A stretch of DNA of 64,000 nt from an uncultured Caulobacteraceae bacterium (GTDB lineage: Bacteria > Pseudomonadota > Alphaproteobacteria > Caulobacterales > Caulobacteraceae), in contig CAIYVC010000073.1 of the NCBI GenBank assembly GCA_903929535.1, positions 1 to 64,000 on the forward strand, in the 5' to 3' direction. Each line of letters begins with the position of its first letter. Position 1 is the stretch's first letter. The notes under the pieces are model-generated. The model searched no databases. It saw only the letters and a list, made by a program, of their open reading frames with translations, and was not told where the DNA came from. Below, piece after piece: positions 39,934 to 58,893 of the stretch. Made by a program: the position numbers and the translations under genes.

Positions 39934-40317
39934 GTGGCTGACGCGCGACGCAAAGCCCTGCTTGTCGAGGACGAGGTCCTGGTCGCCATGGTGGCCGAGG
40001 AGCACCTCGGGTCCATCGGCTTCGATGCGATCTGCGCGGAAACGGCGGAGGAGGCCCTGCGGGCCCTGGCCGCCGACCCCGATCTGCGCCTGGCGGTGAT
40101 CGACATCGGGCTGCCGGACATGCGCGGCGACGATCTGGCGGTCCAGATCCGCGCCGCCGCTCCCGACATCATGATCGTCATGGCCACCGGCTACGACGGC
40201 GCACCGCTGCGCGCCAGGTTCGCCGGCGACGCCCGGCTGACGGTGCTGTCCAAGCCCTACAGCGAAAGCGATCTGCGCAAGGCGGTCGCCTCCCTGGAGC
40301 CCGAAGTCCTGGCCTGA
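39934..40317 (+). CDS. Single-domain response regulator
   Basis: 127 residues, receiver domain only, from GTG 39934. Acidic pocket VEDEVLV, phospho-acceptor aspartate in AVIDIGLPDMRG, and lysine in LSKPYSESDL. No output domain. Family resemblance is to the CheY-like/FixJ-receiver proteins that often act with HisKA_2/HWE kinases in alphaproteobacteria; its place 1.4 kb from phyR makes a link to the stress cascade possible but unproven. Confidence 0.85.
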   Translation: MADARRKALLVEDEVLVAMVAEEHLGSIGFDAICAETAEEALRALAADPDLRLAVIDIGLPDMRGDDLAVQIRAAAPDIMIVMATGYDGAPLRARFAGDARLTVLSKPYSESDLRKAVASLEPEVLA

Positions 40318-41696: not shown

Positions 41697-42476
41697 TCAA
41701 TCCCGGGCCGCCTGCGGCTCGTGAAAGAACAGCGCCTGGCCGATCAAGGCCCGCACCGCGGCATCCTGGAAGGGCTTGGTCACCAGGAAGGCGGGCTCGC
41801 GCTTCTCCCCGGTCAGCAGCCGCTCGGGAAAGGCGGTGATGAAGATCACCGGGATGTCGAAGGTGCGCAGGATGTCGGAGGCCACGTCCAGCCCGCTGGA
41901 CCCGTCGGCCAGGCGCACGTCCGCCAGGATCAGCCCCAGGTTCCGTCCTTCCGTCAGAGCCAGGGCTTCGGCGCGGGTCGCCGCCACCCCCACCACCGTG
42001 TGCCCCAGTCCCCGCACCAACCGGTCCAGATCCAGGGCCACGATCGGCTCGTCCTCGACGATCAGCACATTGGTCGCCAGCTGATCCTCGATCGCCTGCT
42101 CCGCCGCCGTGTAGCGGTCGGTGGTCTGCTCCAGCGGCAGGTCCAGAACTTGGCTGACTTCCCTGAGCGAGAAGCCTTCGGTCATCACCAGCAGCAGCGC
42201 CGTCCGGTGCTCGGGGGTCAGCTTCAGCAGCCGGCGGTCCGCCGTATGTCCGGGCGCGTCGATGGAATGGCCGTTCAGCGACCGCCGCCAGGTGGCGTGG
42301 AACGCCTTATAAAGAGCGGTCTTCAGCGGCAGGCCCGCGTCCAGCTCCCGCCGCCCGTCGCTTAGGCTCTCCAGCGTCGCCCGCACGAAGTCGTCGCCCT
42401 GCGCCTGGGACCCGGTCAGGGCCCGCGCGTAGCGGCGCAGATAGGGCGTCAGGCGGACGATATCCTTCGCATTCAT
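41697..42476 (-). CDS. phyR: General stress response regulator PhyR
   Basis: 259 residues. PhyR is the anti-anti-sigma factor of the alphaproteobacterial GSR: its N-terminal sigma-like domain, released by phosphorylation, captures the anti-sigma NepR. The sigma-like half spans residues 1-~130 (LTPYLRRYARALTGSQAQGDDFVRATLE, here split at residue 32; LTPEHRTALLLVMTEGFSLREVSQ). The C-terminal receiver has EDEPIVA, the aspartate in LILADVRLADGSSG and lysine in LVTKPFQ. ATG 42476; a perfect GGAAC-N16-CGTT lies 36 nt upstream, consistent with autoregulation. Confidence 0.93.
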   Translation of the reverse strand: MNAKDIVRLTPYLRRYARALTGSQAQGDDFVRATLESLSDGRRELDAGLPLKTALYKAFHATWRRSLNGHSIDAPGHTADRRLLKLTPEHRTALLLVMTEGFSLREVSQVLDLPLEQTTDRYTAAEQAIEDQLATNVLIVEDEPIVALDLDRLVRGLGHTVVGVAATRAEALALTEGRNLGLILADVRLADGSSGLDVASDILRTFDIPVIFITAFPERLLTGEKREPAFLVTKPFQDAAVRALIGQALFFHEPQAARD

Positions 42477-42511
42477 GGGTCGGGCCGGGCTCCAAAGCGC
42501 TTCCACACGAA

Positions 42512-42536
42512 AACGGGACCTTGCGGCTCAGGTTCC
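42512..42536 (-). promoter_or_regulatory. EcfG-type promoter of phyR
   Basis: Minus strand: GGAAC at 42536-42532, 16-nt spacer, CGTT at 42515-42512, 36 nt before the phyR ATG. Exact match to the alphaproteobacterial GSR consensus. Its -35 element is only 5 bp from that of the opposite-facing promoter at 42542. Confidence 0.8.
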
Positions 42537-42541
42537 CCAGC

Positions 42542-42566
42542 GGAACCCACAGGGCGAGGCTCCGTT
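42542..42566 (+). promoter_or_regulatory. EcfG-type promoter of the kinase-like gene
   Basis: Plus strand: GGAAC at 42542-42546, 16-nt spacer, CGTT at 42563-42566, 84 nt before the ATG at 42651. Exact consensus. Together with the phyR promoter it makes a back-to-back pair sharing a 15-bp -35 core GTTCC-CCAGC-GGAAC. Confidence 0.8.
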
Positions 42567-42650: not shown

Positions 42651-43817
42651 ATGACGACACCTCACGGAAGGAATTTGCGGGCGCGTATCAAAGCTCACGG
42701 GCTGCGCGCCTTGAGCGTCAAGGCCTGGACCGGCATGGGTCCCATCCGCAGCATCCGCGGCGGCCTCCTGCTGATGACCGTCGTGGCCGTCACCCCGCTG
42801 GTCCTGTTCGCCTCTGGCATGGCCCTGCTGCGGGCCGGAGACGCCCATCAGCTGCCCACCACCGCCGCCTGGATCACCGTCGCCGCCGTGCCGGTCCTGA
42901 TCGGCGTCGCGGCAGTCGTCATCGTCAGCATCGCCTCCGAAGCCATGGTCATGGAGTGGCTCTTCTATCTGGAACGGCTGTCGCGAGCCTATGCGCGCGG
43001 CCGCTACAGCCTGCGGCCCAAGCGTCTGCAGAACGCGCCTCTGGAATTCCGCGCGCTCGGCGACGCGGTCGAGGAAATGGCCTCCGCCGTCGAGCATCGC
43101 GACCAGGCCCTCCGCGACGCTCTGCAGGAACAGACCGTCCTGCTGCGCGAAGTCCACCACCGGGTGAAGAACAACCTGCAGATCGTCGGCAGCCTGCTCA
43201 GCCTCCAGGCCGCCCGCAACACCGACCCTGACACCAAGGCCGCCCTGCAGGACGCCATGGTCCGCATCGACGCTCTCTCCCTCAGCCAGCGCTTTACGCA
43301 GCAGCAGGAGGAGGAAGACGTCATCTCGTCGGTGGAATTGTTCGAAGCCTTCGTCGGCCAGATCCGCGCCCGGCTCGGAAGCGTACGCCGGGGCTTGGCC
43401 CTGACCACCGACATCGAGGCGCACGTCCTGCCGCTGGATACCGGCTCGCGCCTGACCATGATCGCTGCCGAAGCCCTAGTCTGCGCTTTCCGCTCGACCC
43501 GTTCTAATCCCCTCGCCTGCCATCTCAAGCTGACCTTCAACGTCGATGGCGTGGAGATGACCCTCACTGTGGCCGACGAACCGGACGCCTTCATCTGCGG
43601 CCCTGACCAGATTTCGCGGGACCTGATCGACGGCTACATCCGCCAAATGCGCGGCCGTCTGAACGTGCTGGAAGGCACGGGCCAGCTGACCGTTTCGGCG
43701 CCCTGCCACCTGCCGCGCCATGAAGCCGAACAGGCTCCCGCTGATGCTCCCAGTTCGACGCAGACCCCGAAATTCTTTCGGGTTTTGGATCGAACCCATC
43801 GCAGCGTCGCGAGTTAG
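42651..43817 (+). CDS. HisKA_2 kinase-like protein with degenerate ATP-binding domain (PhyP/PhyK-like)
   Basis: 388 residues. Two N-terminal TM helices (GLLLMTVVAVTPLVLFASG; WITVAAVPVLIGVAAVVIVS) with a very short periplasmic loop, then a HisKA_2 dimerisation domain with LLREVHHRVKNNLQIVGSLL (candidate phospho-His 169/170). The expected ATPase domain is present in length but degraded: the N-box ELVTNALKHAF is EALVCAFRST with Cys278 in place of Asn, the G1 box is ADEPDAF, and the G2 glycines are gone. This suggests loss of kinase activity. In Sphingomonas, PhyP is a HisKA_2-type negative regulator of PhyR encoded beside it; a similar phosphatase role is my inference. A true kinase would then be elsewhere. 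Confidence 0.75.
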   Translation: MTTPHGRNLRARIKAHGLRALSVKAWTGMGPIRSIRGGLLLMTVVAVTPLVLFASGMALLRAGDAHQLPTTAAWITVAAVPVLIGVAAVVIVSIASEAMVMEWLFYLERLSRAYARGRYSLRPKRLQNAPLEFRALGDAVEEMASAVEHRDQALRDALQEQTVLLREVHHRVKNNLQIVGSLLSLQAARNTDPDTKAALQDAMVRIDALSLSQRFTQQQEEEDVISSVELFEAFVGQIRARLGSVRRGLALTTDIEAHVLPLDTGSRLTMIAAEALVCAFRSTRSNPLACHLKLTFNVDGVEMTLTVADEPDAFICGPDQISRDLIDGYIRQMRGRLNVLEGTGQLTVSAPCHLPRHEAEQAPADAPSSTQTPKFFRVLDRTHRSVAS

Positions 43818-44066: not shown

Positions 44067-44294
44067 ATGGCTCAAGATCGCCCGCAGAAGACCCCCTCCC
44101 GTCGCGGTTTCGCCGCCATGGACAAGGATCGCCAGCGCGAGATCGCCCGCAAGGGCGGCGCCAGCGTTCCGGACGAGAAGCGCAGCTTCTCCCAGGACCG
44201 CGACCTCGCCGCCGCGGCAGGCCGCAAGGGTGGTGAAGCCTCGCATGGCGGCGGCCGCACCGGTCGCCCCGCCGACGCCCGCCGCCCGGCTTAG
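44067..44294 (+). CDS. KGG-motif (con-10/GsiB-like) stress protein
   Basis: 75 residues, hydrophilic, with repeats RGFAAMDKDRQREIARKGG and LAAAAGRKGGEASHGGG. This RKGG repeat pattern defines the KGG/con-10 family of stress-induced hydrophilins. ATG 44067 is preceded by AAGGAG at 44055-44060. Lies between the kinase-like gene and the sigma factor gene, so it is probably part of the stress regulon. Confidence 0.8.
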   Translation: MAQDRPQKTPSRRGFAAMDKDRQREIARKGGASVPDEKRSFSQDRDLAAAAGRKGGEASHGGGRTGRPADARRPA

Positions 44295-44336: not shown

Positions 44337-44361
44337 GGAACAGATGGTTCCGCATTGCGTT
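44337..44361 (+). promoter_or_regulatory. EcfG-type promoter of the sigma factor gene
   Basis: GGAAC at 44337-44341, 16-nt spacer, CGTT at 44358-44361, 72 nt before the ATG at 44434. Exact consensus. Because transcription would begin near 44368, an in-frame upstream ATG at 44344 cannot be the start from this promoter. Confidence 0.8.
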
Positions 44362-44433: not shown

Positions 44434-45027
44434 ATGACTAGCGCCCGCGCGTTGCAAGGCGACGACGCCGGTCCCGACGGGATTGGCGGTCAAAGCTGGC
44501 GCGACGCCGTGGTCACCATGATCCCCGCCCTTCGCGCCTTCGCCTGGTCTCTCAGCCACAACTCTTCGGACGCCGACGATCTGGTGCAGGACACCCTGAT
44601 CAAGGCCTGGACCCACCGCGACAAGTTCGAAGTCGGCACCAACCTGAGGGCGTGGCTCTTCACCATCCTGCGCAACACCTACTACACCGCTGTCGTGCGC
44701 CGCCGCCGCGAGGTGCGCGACGAGACCGGCGCCTATGCCGCCACCCTGTCGACCCCGCCGACCCAGGACTGGAGCCTGGCCATGCGGTCGCTGCAGACCG
44801 CCCTGGCCCAGCTGCCCGACGAGAACCGCGAGGCCCTGATCCTGGTCGGCGCCGCGGGCCTGTCCTACGAGGAGGCCGCCGAGGTGTGCGGCTGCGCGCT
44901 GGGCACCATCAAAAGCCGGGTCAACCGCGCCCGCGCCCGCCTGCTCAAGATCATGGACGCCGAAGACGCGTCCGACGCCTTCGCCGGCGATATCCACGCC
45001 TCGCAGCCCGCCTCGCCGAACCTTTAG
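44434..45027 (+). CDS. ecfG: ECF sigma factor, EcfG family (general stress response)
   Basis: 197 residues. Sigma region 2 is PALRAFAWSLSHNSSDADDLVQDTLIKAW (residues ~30-58), with NLRAWLFTILRNTYYT; region 4 is LPDENREALILVGAAGLSYEEAAEVCGC followed by GTIKSRVNRARARL. These match the EcfG (ECF15; SigT/SigU) group that recognises GGAAC-N16-CGTT. ATG 44434 was chosen over 44344 because the promoter's -10 lies between them. The gene is probably autoregulated. In relatives nepR usually precedes it; here a KGG protein does. Confidence 0.9.
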   Translation: MTSARALQGDDAGPDGIGGQSWRDAVVTMIPALRAFAWSLSHNSSDADDLVQDTLIKAWTHRDKFEVGTNLRAWLFTILRNTYYTAVVRRRREVRDETGAYAATLSTPPTQDWSLAMRSLQTALAQLPDENREALILVGAAGLSYEEAAEVCGCALGTIKSRVNRARARLLKIMDAEDASDAFAGDIHASQPASPNL

Positions 45028-45066
45028 ACCGTTCAGTCATCTCGCCTCAACCCAATGGAGTCCGCC

Positions 45067-45450
45067 ATGGAAACCCGAACCTTTGAATCCGAAGACGCCG
45101 GCCGCCGCCGGCTGATCTCAGCCGACCGAGTCCAGGGCACGGCGGTCTACGACCAGGCCGGAGAAAAGCTGGGCCATATCGAGGACGTTCTGCTGCACAA
45201 GGTGTCGGGCAAGGTGGCCTATGCGGTGATGTCCTTCGGCGGCTTCCTGGGCGCCGGCGAGCGCTACCATCCCCTGCCCTGGTCGATGCTCACCTACGAC
45301 ACCGAGCGTAACGGCTACGTCGTGCCCCTCAACAAAGCCCAGCTCGAGGACGCCCCGACCCTCGGCGGCGACAAGGCCGAACACGAGGACGACACCGTCT
45401 GGGCCGACCAGGTGCATAGCCACTACGGCATGCCCGGCCCCTTCATCTGA
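45067..45450 (+). CDS. PRC-barrel domain protein
   Basis: 127 residues. PRC-barrel fold: ISADRVQGTAVYDQAGEKLGHIEDVLLHK, split across residues 14-42, then GKVAYAVMSFGGFLGAGERYHPLPW. Such proteins are frequent in alphaproteobacterial stress regulons, function unclear. ATG 45067 has GGAG 6 nt upstream; the upstream ATG at 45055 would itself contain that site. Follows the sigma factor by 39 nt with no promoter motif of its own, so co-transcription is likely. Confidence 0.85.
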   Translation: METRTFESEDAGRRRLISADRVQGTAVYDQAGEKLGHIEDVLLHKVSGKVAYAVMSFGGFLGAGERYHPLPWSMLTYDTERNGYVVPLNKAQLEDAPTLGGDKAEHEDDTVWADQVHSHYGMPGPFI

Positions 45451-45468: not shown

Positions 45469-45493
45469 GGAACTCCTTTGAAATCAGTCCGTT
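45469..45493 (+). promoter_or_regulatory. EcfG-type promoter of csbD
   Basis: GGAAC at 45469-45473, 16-nt spacer, CGTT at 45490-45493, 36 nt before the csbD-family ATG. Exact GSR consensus, in a 79-bp intergenic gap. Confidence 0.8.
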
Positions 45494-45529: not shown

Positions 45530-45721
45530 ATGGACAAGCTGAGAGCCGAAGGCGCCGGTCAAAAGATGGCCGGCCGCGTCAAGGAAGCCGCCGGCAAGCT
45601 GACCGGCGACGCCAAGCTGCAGGCCGAAGGCCGCGCGGACAAGACCGCGGGCGGCATCAAGAACGCCGTGGGCGGCGCCGCCGACGCGGTGCGCGACGCG
45701 GCCCGCAAGGCGAGCCGCTAG
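45530..45721 (+). CDS. CsbD-family stress protein
   Basis: 63 residues. CsbD-like hydrophilic protein with GQKMAGRVKEAAGKLTGDAKLQAEGRADK at residues 10-38, a pattern found in general stress regulons of many bacteria (SigB-dependent in Bacillus). AGGAG at 45520-45524 precedes ATG 45530. A perfect GSR promoter lies 36 nt upstream and a strong hairpin terminator follows, so it is a monocistronic stress gene. Biochemical role unknown. Confidence 0.88.
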   Translation: MDKLRAEGAGQKMAGRVKEAAGKLTGDAKLQAEGRADKTAGGIKNAVGGAADAVRDAARKASR

Positions 45722-57358: not shown

Positions 57359-57530
57359 TTCAACATTCCGTGAACACCCTGCCGAGGCTGATACACGACT
57401 CGTCGGGCAAAAGCGATTGCCTTGCGATTAGAAAGACTTCTGGCGCCCACACATAAGGCGCCGCAATTGCGTTGTAACTGAGACGTGAACGCACACCTGG
57501 CGCCGGCTTCCTACATCAGCTTGGCTTGGG

Positions 57531-57555
57531 GGAACGCGGGACGTCCTGTACCGTT
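57531..57555 (+). promoter_or_regulatory. EcfG-type promoter upstream of egtB
   Basis: GGAAC at 57531-57535, 16-nt spacer, CGTT at 57552-57555: the same exact motif as in the phyR/ecfG island. It lies in the ~300-bp gap upstream of egtB on the correct strand. By random expectation roughly half a match would occur in the whole window on both strands, so this single remote hit could be chance, but its placement is right. Confidence 0.55.
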
Positions 57556-57606
57556 TGCCCAAGTTCGGCGGGTGTTTACGCGGAAACAGCGGACGGGGGC
57601 GACCTT

Positions 57607-58893
57607 TTGGCGGCGGCGAATCCAGGCCAGCGGACAGGCTCCGAAGATGCGCGGCGCCCGTCCTGGATGCGGCGCTATGACGCCGTGCGCGGCCAGACCC
57701 TGGCCCTCACCGCCGGCCTCAGCGCCGAGGACCAGCAGATCCAGTCCATGCCCGACGTCAGCCCCACCAAGTGGCACCTGGCGCACATGGCCTGGTTCTT
57801 CGAGACCTTCCTGCTGGCCCCGCGCCTGCCCAGCTACGAGGTGTTCGACCCTCAGTTCGGCTTCCTGTTCAACTCCTACTACGAGGCCGTCGGCGAGCGC
57901 TGGCCGCGTCCCGAGCGGGGCCTGCTGTCGCGCCCCTCCGCCGACCGCATCCTGGCCTACCGCCGCTACGTCGACGCCCACATGAGCGCCCTGATCGCCG
58001 GCGCAAGCGATGAAGAGTGGTCTGAGATCGAGCCGGTGCTGGAGCTGGGTCTGCATCACGAGCAGCAGCATCAGGAGCTGATCCTGATGGACATCAAGCA
58101 CGTCTTCTCGCTCAACCCGCTGGCTCCCGCTTACGCACCTGCCCGCGCCTGGCCCGCCGGCGAGGCCCATCCCCTATCTTGGGTCGCCCATCCGGGCGGG
58201 CTGGTGGAGATCGGCCACGACGGCTCCGGCTTCGCCTTCGACAACGAGGGGCCCCGGCACAAGGTCTGGCTGGAGCCCTTCGTACTGGCCAATCGGCTGT
58301 CCACCTGCGGCGAATACCTGGCCTTCGTCCAGGACGGCGGCTACGCCCGCCCGGGACTATGGCTCTCCGACGGCTGGGCCGCCGTGCAGCGTGAGGGCTG
58401 GAGCGCCCCGCTCTACTGGCGCGACGAAGACAGCCAGCCGCACATCTTCACCCTCTCGGGCCTCCGCCGCCTGAACCCCGCCGAGCCGGTCAGCCACCTC
58501 AGCTTCTACGAGGCCGAAGCCTTCGCCCGCTGGTCGGGCAAGCGCCTGCCGACCGAGGCGGAATGGGAAACCCTGGCCCAGCATCATCCGATGGCCGCGT
58601 CCGAACCCTCCGGCCTCTTCCATCCCCAGGCCGCAGCCCCCATCTCCGGTCTCCAGCAGATGACCGGCGAGCTTTGGCAGTGGACCGCGAGCCCCTACGG
58701 CCCCTACCCCCGCTATCGGCCGCCCGAGGGCCCGATCGGCGAGTACAACGGCAAGTTCATGTCCAGCCAGATGGTCCTGCGCGGCGGCGCGGCGGTGACC
58801 CCGGCCGAGCATACCCGCATGAGTTACCGCAACTTCTTTCCCCCGCACGCCCGCTGGGCCTTCAGTGGCGTGAGACTGGCCGATGATGCTTGA
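57607..58893 (+). CDS. egtB: Ergothioneine biosynthesis sulfoxide synthase EgtB
   Basis: 428 residues from TTG 57607. Non-haem iron enzyme joining hercynine to a thiol donor with O2. The DinB-like N-terminal domain has SPTKWHLAHMAWFFETF and the HxxxH iron ligands in HHEQQHQEL; the C-terminal formylglycine-enzyme-like domain has RLPTEAEWE, GELWQWTASPYGPY and LRGGA. Start options: TTG 57526 (would overlap the promoter), TTG 57607 (G-rich upstream sequence, usual length) or ATG 57667 (408 residues). Overlaps egtD by 11 nt. Confidence 0.9.
   Translation: MAAANPGQRTGSEDARRPSWMRRYDAVRGQTLALTAGLSAEDQQIQSMPDVSPTKWHLAHMAWFFETFLLAPRLPSYEVFDPQFGFLFNSYYEAVGERWPRPERGLLSRPSADRILAYRRYVDAHMSALIAGASDEEWSEIEPVLELGLHHEQQHQELILMDIKHVFSLNPLAPAYAPARAWPAGEAHPLSWVAHPGGLVEIGHDGSGFAFDNEGPRHKVWLEPFVLANRLSTCGEYLAFVQDGGYARPGLWLSDGWAAVQREGWSAPLYWRDEDSQPHIFTLSGLRRLNPAEPVSHLSFYEAEAFARWSGKRLPTEAEWETLAQHHPMAASEPSGLFHPQAAAPISGLQQMTGELWQWTASPYGPYPRYRPPEGPIGEYNGKFMSSQMVLRGGAAVTPAEHTRMSYRNFFPPHARWAFSGVRLADDA

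Follow-up and report, generated by a model that had tools for sequence, protein, structure and literature searches.

The closest described counterparts of the protein analyzed here are two HisKA_2 proteins that act on PhyR, namely, PhyT of Sphingomonas melonis Fr1 and PhyK of C. crescentus. PhyT, renamed from PhyP following in vitro assays, carries out SdrG-to-PhyR phosphotransfer in vitro, with the phosphate of SdrG~P passing to PhyR through the PhyT histidine, and, in cells without stress, it binds unphosphorylated PhyR and keeps it sequestered at the membrane (PMC5898713). Genetically, phyP/phyT is an essential negative regulator in S. melonis, a role that has been explained by sequestration, and in vitro, PhyT showed no activity as a phosphatase toward PhyR~P (PMC5898713, S1 Fig). 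The same work names ChpT and Spo0B as phosphotransferase precedents. PhyK of C. crescentus receives phosphate from MrrA and passes it on to PhyR without needing its ATP site: G1/G2 mutants complement fully but an H371A mutant does not, and PhyK itself shows no kinase activity (PMC5964349). The ATP site is nevertheless perfect, and the authors could not say why a site that is dispensable by mutation should be conserved. Second stress response loci are also known, as in Rubellimicrobium thermophilum, where a second GSR locus encodes a PhyR and an EcfG together with an HWE-family kinase, lacks a NepR of its own, and shares the single NepR of the other locus (PMC12148442).

Here, we analyze a 64,000-nucleotide stretch of DNA from an uncultured Caulobacteraceae bacterium (contig CAIYVC010000073.1; hereinafter, the window), in which a second phyR gene lies beside a gene encoding a HisKA_2 protein, termed HK2 (42651 to 43817, plus strand).

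Results

The open reading frame of HK2 specifies a 388-amino-acid membrane protein, which Pfam, the NCBIfam PhyK model, and alignment place as a PhyK-family paralog with a dead ATP domain. The HisKA_2 domain (PF07568) is matched at 1.8e-16 (60.4 bits against a Pfam gathering score of 22.3), and no HATPase domain is matched by Pfam in HK2; in PhyK1, the same genome's own PhyK, both HisKA_2 and HATPase_c are matched, the latter weakly (3.1e-5). The phospho-acceptor block of HK2, LREVHHRVKNNLQ, is intact, as an earlier sequence-only reading had claimed. The acceptor is His170 (43158 to 43160, plus strand), which lies in the motif HHRVKNN within a DHp region spanning residues 161 to 240 (43131 to 43370, plus strand). 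This histidine is invariant in 45 of the 45 aligned relatives, and the longer HHRVKNNLQ block is perfectly retained.

The CA (ATPase) domain (residues 248 to 345; 43392 to 43685, plus strand) is degenerate when aligned with 29 Caulobacteraceae PhyKs and PhyK1. The N-box asparagine, which is present in every aligned PhyK, is replaced by Cys278 (43482 to 43484, plus strand), and the other changes in ATP motifs comprise K281R, H282S, G311P, G320Q, V321I, and G322S. The former G1 box reads DEPDA (residues 309 to 313; 43575 to 43589, plus strand) as opposed to the DDG-type box of PhyKs, with the first aspartate (D309) retained and both glycines gone, and QIS stands in place of GVG in the former G2 box (residues 320 to 322; 43608 to 43616, plus strand). 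The alignment thereby confirms the loss of the N-box asparagine and of the G1 and G2 glycines that had been read from the sequence alone, and HK2 lacks the N, G1, and G2 boxes required of an active HisKA_2 kinase. Overall length of the CA domain is preserved, also in agreement with that reading, and structure prediction, which it had proposed as a check, returned a normal CA fold (AlphaFold; pLDDT mostly >90), confidence being high except at the former ATP lid. As a HisKA_2 DHp-CA fold, the model is best matched by the EL346 kinase (4r39, Z = 19.5), and over DHp plus CA, it aligns best with EL346 and Brucella LOV-HK, in each case with the kinase region. RetS structures are among the fold matches; the absence of ChpT from the 50 matches listed is evidence neither way.

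Hydropathy and AlphaFold place two transmembrane helices in the N-terminal part of HK2, at about residues 34 to 62 (36 to 62 when mapped to 42756 to 42836, plus strand; AlphaFold helix 32 to 62), matching the first transmembrane helix of PhyK, and at about residues 68 to 100 (69 to 100 when mapped to 42855 to 42950, plus strand). The loop between them is about 10 to 14 residues long, compared with about 235 residues in PhyK, where it forms the dCache sensor domain characteristic of the family (in PhyK1, the dCache_1 match falls under Pfam's cutoff). The periplasmic part had been considered too short for a classic sensor, and the loop is indeed tiny, but its shortness reflects a deletion of the PhyK dCache domain and is no argument against PhyK ancestry. 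The sensor is dispensable in the PhyK family, since Brevundimonas sp. AAP58 (L103/L178; also its relative, L179) has, in the canonical location, a sensorless PhyK of 384 amino acids with intact ATP motifs. This protein resembles HK2 in having two transmembrane helices and almost no periplasmic loop, and differs from it in its intact CA motifs and its canonical location.

Relationship of HK2 to PhyK and PhyT

The NCBIfam PhyK model (NF051872) matches HK2 at 1.9e-54 over profile positions 257 to 526, and the score of 185 bits does not reach the cutoff of 750 that PhyK1 passes (760 bits), so that, judged by profile, HK2 is related to PhyK but is not an equivalog. Identity to PhyKs is 34 to 40% over the linker, DHp, and CA regions. 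Of the residues that are invariant among PhyKs, HK2 retains 20 of 25 in the linker and 18 of 27 in the DHp core but only 12 of 36 in the CA domain (DHp core versus CA, Fisher test, P = 0.012; with the linker added, P = 0.0004). By these counts, a PhyK-type linker and DHp are present in HK2, and the second half of the DHp has drifted, with 5 of 14 invariant residues kept and Y213, L216, and Y217 among those changed. Because the DHp core and linker are kept and the CA domain is lost, the motif loss is, on this statistical comparison, not a matter of chance divergence. The same pattern of CA loss occurs in sphingomonad PhyT proteins, which retain 17 to 19 of the 27 DHp core residues and 8 to 10 of the 36 CA residues, as opposed to 21 to 24 and 23 to 24, respectively, in Hyphomonad-type PhyKs.

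A scan of named genomes with the alignment query yielded a graded series of motif loss among the PhyR-adjacent kinases in the matches listed. Motifs are intact in Caulobacteraceae and in most Hyphomonad-type genomes, and they are fully lost in sphingomonads, where the N-box residue is changed from N to L in most proteins and neither G1 nor G2 is present; PhyT of S. melonis is the most thoroughly studied protein of this kind. The PhyR-adjacent HisKA_2 proteins of Rhodobacteraceae (L120 to L132 and relatives) among these matches mostly keep the N box and have a degenerate G1, an intermediate state between PhyK and PhyT.

Phylogenetically, HK2 groups with Caulobacterales PhyKs (86 to 88% support), outside the Caulobacteraceae PhyK clade and on a very long branch (2.66). 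An origin as a recent copy of PhyK1 is rejected (AU test, P = 0.019), a result to be read with caution given the long branch of HK2, and a joint clade of HK2 and sphingomonad PhyTs is not (P = 0.23), making independence of the ATP-site loss from the PhyT lineage no more than likely. No ortholog of HK2 was recovered from the genus, nor from 390 genomes of the family or 398 of the order at an E value of 1e-49, with the best four candidates per genome scored. An origin from a plasmid was rejected, only distant kinases, of at most about 35% identity, being among the best rows of the search. The earlier reading held that a complete N box in close homologs would reduce the replacement to a local divergence. 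The nearest homologs, the PhyKs at 34 to 40% identity, do have complete N boxes, but these are paralogs, and no true ortholog was found. With no ortholog in the 390 family genomes, conservation of the degenerate motifs cannot be shown, and that a single sequence cannot show selection on HK2 is the main weakness of the case.

A second PhyR module without NepR

The gene phyR2 (41697 to 42506, minus strand) adjoins HK2 and encodes a second PhyR paralog, as identified by Pfam, NCBIfam, and phylogeny. With the GTG at 42506 too close to the promoter, its true start is probably the ATG at 42476. PhyR2 has intact sigma-like domains and an intact receiver (PF22029, PF22233, and PF00072), scores 314 bits against NF006623 (cutoff of 240), and has the features of a PhyR, including the receiver phospho-aspartate (LADVRLADGSSG). 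Downstream of HK2, all on the plus strand, lie genes for a KGG stress protein (44067 to 44294), the EcfG-like sigma factor EcfG2 (44434 to 45027), which is 48% identical to the canonical EcfG1, a PRC-barrel protein (45055 to 45450), and a CsbD-like stress protein (45530 to 45721), giving the order phyR2 (−), HK2 (+), KGG (+), ecfG2 (+), PRC (+), CsbD (+). No nepR is found near ecfG2, and the only NepR found in the genome belongs to a complete canonical phyR-nepR-ecfG-phyK locus on another contig (contig 89). The phyR that had been noticed beside HK2 is therefore real but is not part of the main locus, being instead a member of a paralogous set that lacks NepR.

PhyR2 forms a clade (100/100 support) with sequences from 13 other genomes in at least 8 other genera and, from this tree, is an old paralog present across at least 9 genera of Caulobacteraceae. 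In these other genomes, KGG comes after phyR2, in many cases along with an egtBD-type gene and an EcfG-like sigma factor, and a membrane protein is also seen; the PRC-barrel gene after ecfG2 is likewise conserved. A counterpart of HK2 was sought beside phyR2 in other genera, and no HisKA_2 gene was present in the stretches examined from the 13 genomes, in which KGG, a membrane protein, or an egtBD-type gene occupies that place instead. Because these genomes have PhyR2 without an adjoining HK2, PhyR2 can work without it. In one genome of the same genus (G001), the order KGG-ecfG2-PRC-CsbD-MFS is retained; its contig starts at KGG, leaving the upstream phyR2/HK2 region outside it. Another member of the genus (G002, 98% complete) has no PhyR/EcfG match to the PhyR_sigma2 model at an E value of 0.001, and this close relative may have lost the general stress response. 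Elsewhere, a record named as a gammaproteobacterium (Peristeroidobacter soli JW-3, Steroidobacteraceae; L098) contains a complete phyR-nepR-ecfG-phyK locus with a PhyR of 58% identity, reflecting either horizontal transfer or a mislabeled or contaminated record.

A single-domain response regulator (39934 to 40317, plus strand) is also conserved near phyR2 in three other genomes (L080 to L082), at 51 to 53% identity. It was rejected as a FATGUY regulator, having ATGY but not PFXF, and it is a possible extra phosphate donor; it may be a dedicated regulator of the PhyR2 module. Two other single-domain regulators in the genome have the exact PFXFATGY motif of MrrA/SdrG (PFIFATGY and PFLFATGY) and are candidate phosphate donors, and there are ten HisKA_2 matches in the genome.

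EcfG-type promoters

The motif GGAAC-N16/17-CGTT occurs five times in the window, compared with 0.66 occurrences expected. Perfect matches precede both members of the divergent pair formed by HK2 (42542 to 42566, plus strand; spacer of N16) and phyR2 (42512 to 42536, minus strand) as well as ecfG2 (44337 to 44361, plus strand); the other two are at the CsbD gene (45469 to 45493, plus strand) and, at 57.5 kb, at a gene resembling egtB. The same motif also precedes phyR2 at most of its other loci and ecfG2 in several other genomes. Given the excess of motifs over expectation and their recurrence, induction of HK2 by an EcfG-type sigma factor is well supported as a prediction from the promoter motifs, consistent with the control by a stress sigma factor that the sequence-only reading had proposed. 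The negative feedback attached to that proposal is only one option, as EcfG-driven phyR2 and ecfG2, taken by themselves, would make the feedback positive.

The egtB-like gene (57526 to 58893, plus strand), encoding DinB_2 and FGE-sulfatase domains of the kind involved in ergothioneine synthesis, carries its perfect motif (57531 to 57555) at the start of the frame, and its true start is probably downstream of the motif. In three other genomes (L081 to L083), the phyR2-KGG-ecfG2 locus includes a gene for an EgtB-EgtD fusion, which points to a connection of ergothioneine with the second stress module of Caulobacteraceae.

Discussion

We consider it reasonably likely that HK2 is an ATP-independent, PhyT-like phosphotransferase and anchor for PhyR2 that is induced by its own sigma factor. 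HK2 has several features of a PhyT-type protein: an HRxxN motif in the DHp, a degenerate ATPase domain, a membrane anchor, and a gene adjacent to phyR, all shared with PhyT of S. melonis Fr1. Its motif loss equals in amount that of the sphingomonad PhyT relatives. PhyT differs in having a periplasmic domain (sphingomonad open frames are 528 to 575 amino acids, versus 388 for HK2) and a place at the main phyR locus, whereas HK2 descends from Caulobacterales PhyKs by the tree (joint PhyT clade, P = 0.23) and occupies a second, NepR-less locus. The closest sequence family is PhyK of C. crescentus and other Caulobacteraceae, with the same transmembrane helices, linker, and DHp; unlike HK2, those proteins keep every ATP motif and the dCache domain of about 235 amino acids, and are encoded at canonical phyR-nepR-ecfG-phyK loci, as is PhyK1 in this genome. 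The paralogous locus of R. thermophilum resembles the window module in having its own PhyR, EcfG, and HWE-family kinase and no NepR, but its kinase is described only as another HWE-family HK, and no kinase-dead adaptor is reported (PMC12148442). ChpT and Spo0B, which are likened to HK2 here by description, are also histidine kinase-derived phosphotransferases with degenerate catalytic domains, although they serve other pathways.

As a PhyK-derived histidine phosphotransferase and membrane anchor like Sphingomonas PhyT, HK2 would work as follows. Stress-sensing HisKA_2/HWE kinases elsewhere in the cell would supply phosphate to a single-domain regulator with the FATGUY motif, of the MrrA/SdrG type, from which the phosphate would pass to His170 of an HK2 dimer and on to the receiver aspartate of PhyR2; without phosphate, HK2 would retain PhyR2 at the membrane. 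PhyR2~P would then bind the cell's only NepR and free EcfG-type sigma factors, with HK2, phyR2, and ecfG2 being among the genes under their control. The CA domain would bind no ATP and persist as a structural cap, and with sensing handed to other kinases, the periplasmic domain could be lost. The domain anatomy, the lost motifs, the relationship to PhyK, the second locus, the promoter motifs, the FATGUY regulators, and the intact phospho-site and sigma-like domains of PhyR2 are observed; we infer all of the phosphotransfer steps, as well as the sequestration, the preference for PhyR2 rather than PhyR1, the identity of the sigma factor that is freed, and the sign of the effect. Points against this model are the confinement of HK2 to a single genome, the 13 genomes that have PhyR2 with no HK2 beside it, the drift in the second half of the DHp, and the very long branch.

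The view that this HisKA_2 protein acts on a PhyR and is unlikely to be a kinase is supported, and HK2 is very probably not an autokinase. Autophosphorylation in spite of its CA domain, for which one could cite the kept fold and the first G1 aspartate, is extremely improbable with the N-box asparagine, the lysine, the histidine, and both glycines of G1 and of G2 all replaced. We know of no phosphatase-specific motif in HisKA_2 proteins. The possibility that HK2 is mainly a phosphatase or reverse phosphotransferase of PhyR2~P, shutting off the response through sigma-induced negative feedback, is unlikely; it would fit the intact HRxxN block, the absence of kinase motifs, the EcfG promoter motif, and the essential negative role of phyP/phyT in S. 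melonis genetics, but PhyT shows no such activity on PhyR~P in vitro and its negative role is attributed to sequestration (PMC5898713). PhyP had originally been invoked as a HisKA_2-type negative regulator in favor of a phosphatase, and this support falls away now that the protein, as PhyT, is known for phosphotransfer; the alternative offered alongside it, a phosphotransferase or relay, fits the published behavior of both PhyT and PhyK (PMC5898713, PMC5964349).

Sequestration could also be the whole of the function, with HK2 serving only as a membrane anchor or titrator that sets a threshold for the second module without any chemistry at His170. In the absence of stress, PhyT does complex with PhyR and keep it at the membrane (PMC5898713), and HK2 retains two transmembrane helices with nothing to sense and forms a divergent, coregulated pair with phyR2, but the perfect retention of His170 and HHRVKNNLQ goes beyond the needs of a scaffold, and we regard this reading as quite unlikely. 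Degenerate histidine kinase partners, such as RetS, are known. As a pseudokinase, HK2 might similarly associate with PhyK1 or with one of the other HisKA_2 kinases of this genome and modulate its partner, with the DHp of HK2 serving as acceptor in trans; the DHp dimer helices are kept and RetS structures are among the fold matches, but C. crescentus PhyK shows no kinase activity to borrow (PMC5964349), and mixed dimers with PhyK1 are less likely because the DHp has diverged to about 40% identity, leaving this option very improbable. We assign a similarly slight chance to HK2 being a functionless PhyK duplicate in decay. Its presence in one genome only, its very long branch, the erosion of the CA domain and part of the DHp, and a low-GC3 tail from about residue 337 are what decay would produce, but the frame is open for 388 codons with a coding GC3 of 0.79 to 0.92 up to about residue 336, and the promoter motif is perfect. 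A dead gene, moreover, would erode evenly, and the losses in HK2 are concentrated in the CA domain, with the DHp core and linker kept (P = 0.0004); this concentration, the coding signal, and the promoter together argue against decay.

That a HisKA_2 adaptor for PhyR can be kinase-dead, or can work independently of kinase activity, is already known. As far as the cited papers go, what is new is the loss of both sensor and ATP site in one PhyK paralog and the association of this paralog with a second PhyR lineage of old origin. More tentatively than the phosphotransfer function itself, HK2 may be a PhyK copy reduced to its bare phosphotransfer core, with neither sensor nor ATP site, in a second, semi-insulated stress module, the CA pocket possibly having been lost independently of PhyT. 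If so, HK2 would be a natural counterpart of the experiment in which G1 and G2 of PhyK were mutated. That a PhyK paralog of the Caulobacteraceae has shed its ATP site and sensor but still carries the transfer histidine suggests that selection can act on the relay function by itself, and its small size makes HK2 well suited to experiments on the purpose of the CA domain. HK2 further highlights a second, old lineage of PhyR in the Caulobacteraceae, one that has to share the only NepR of the cell in the genome studied here.
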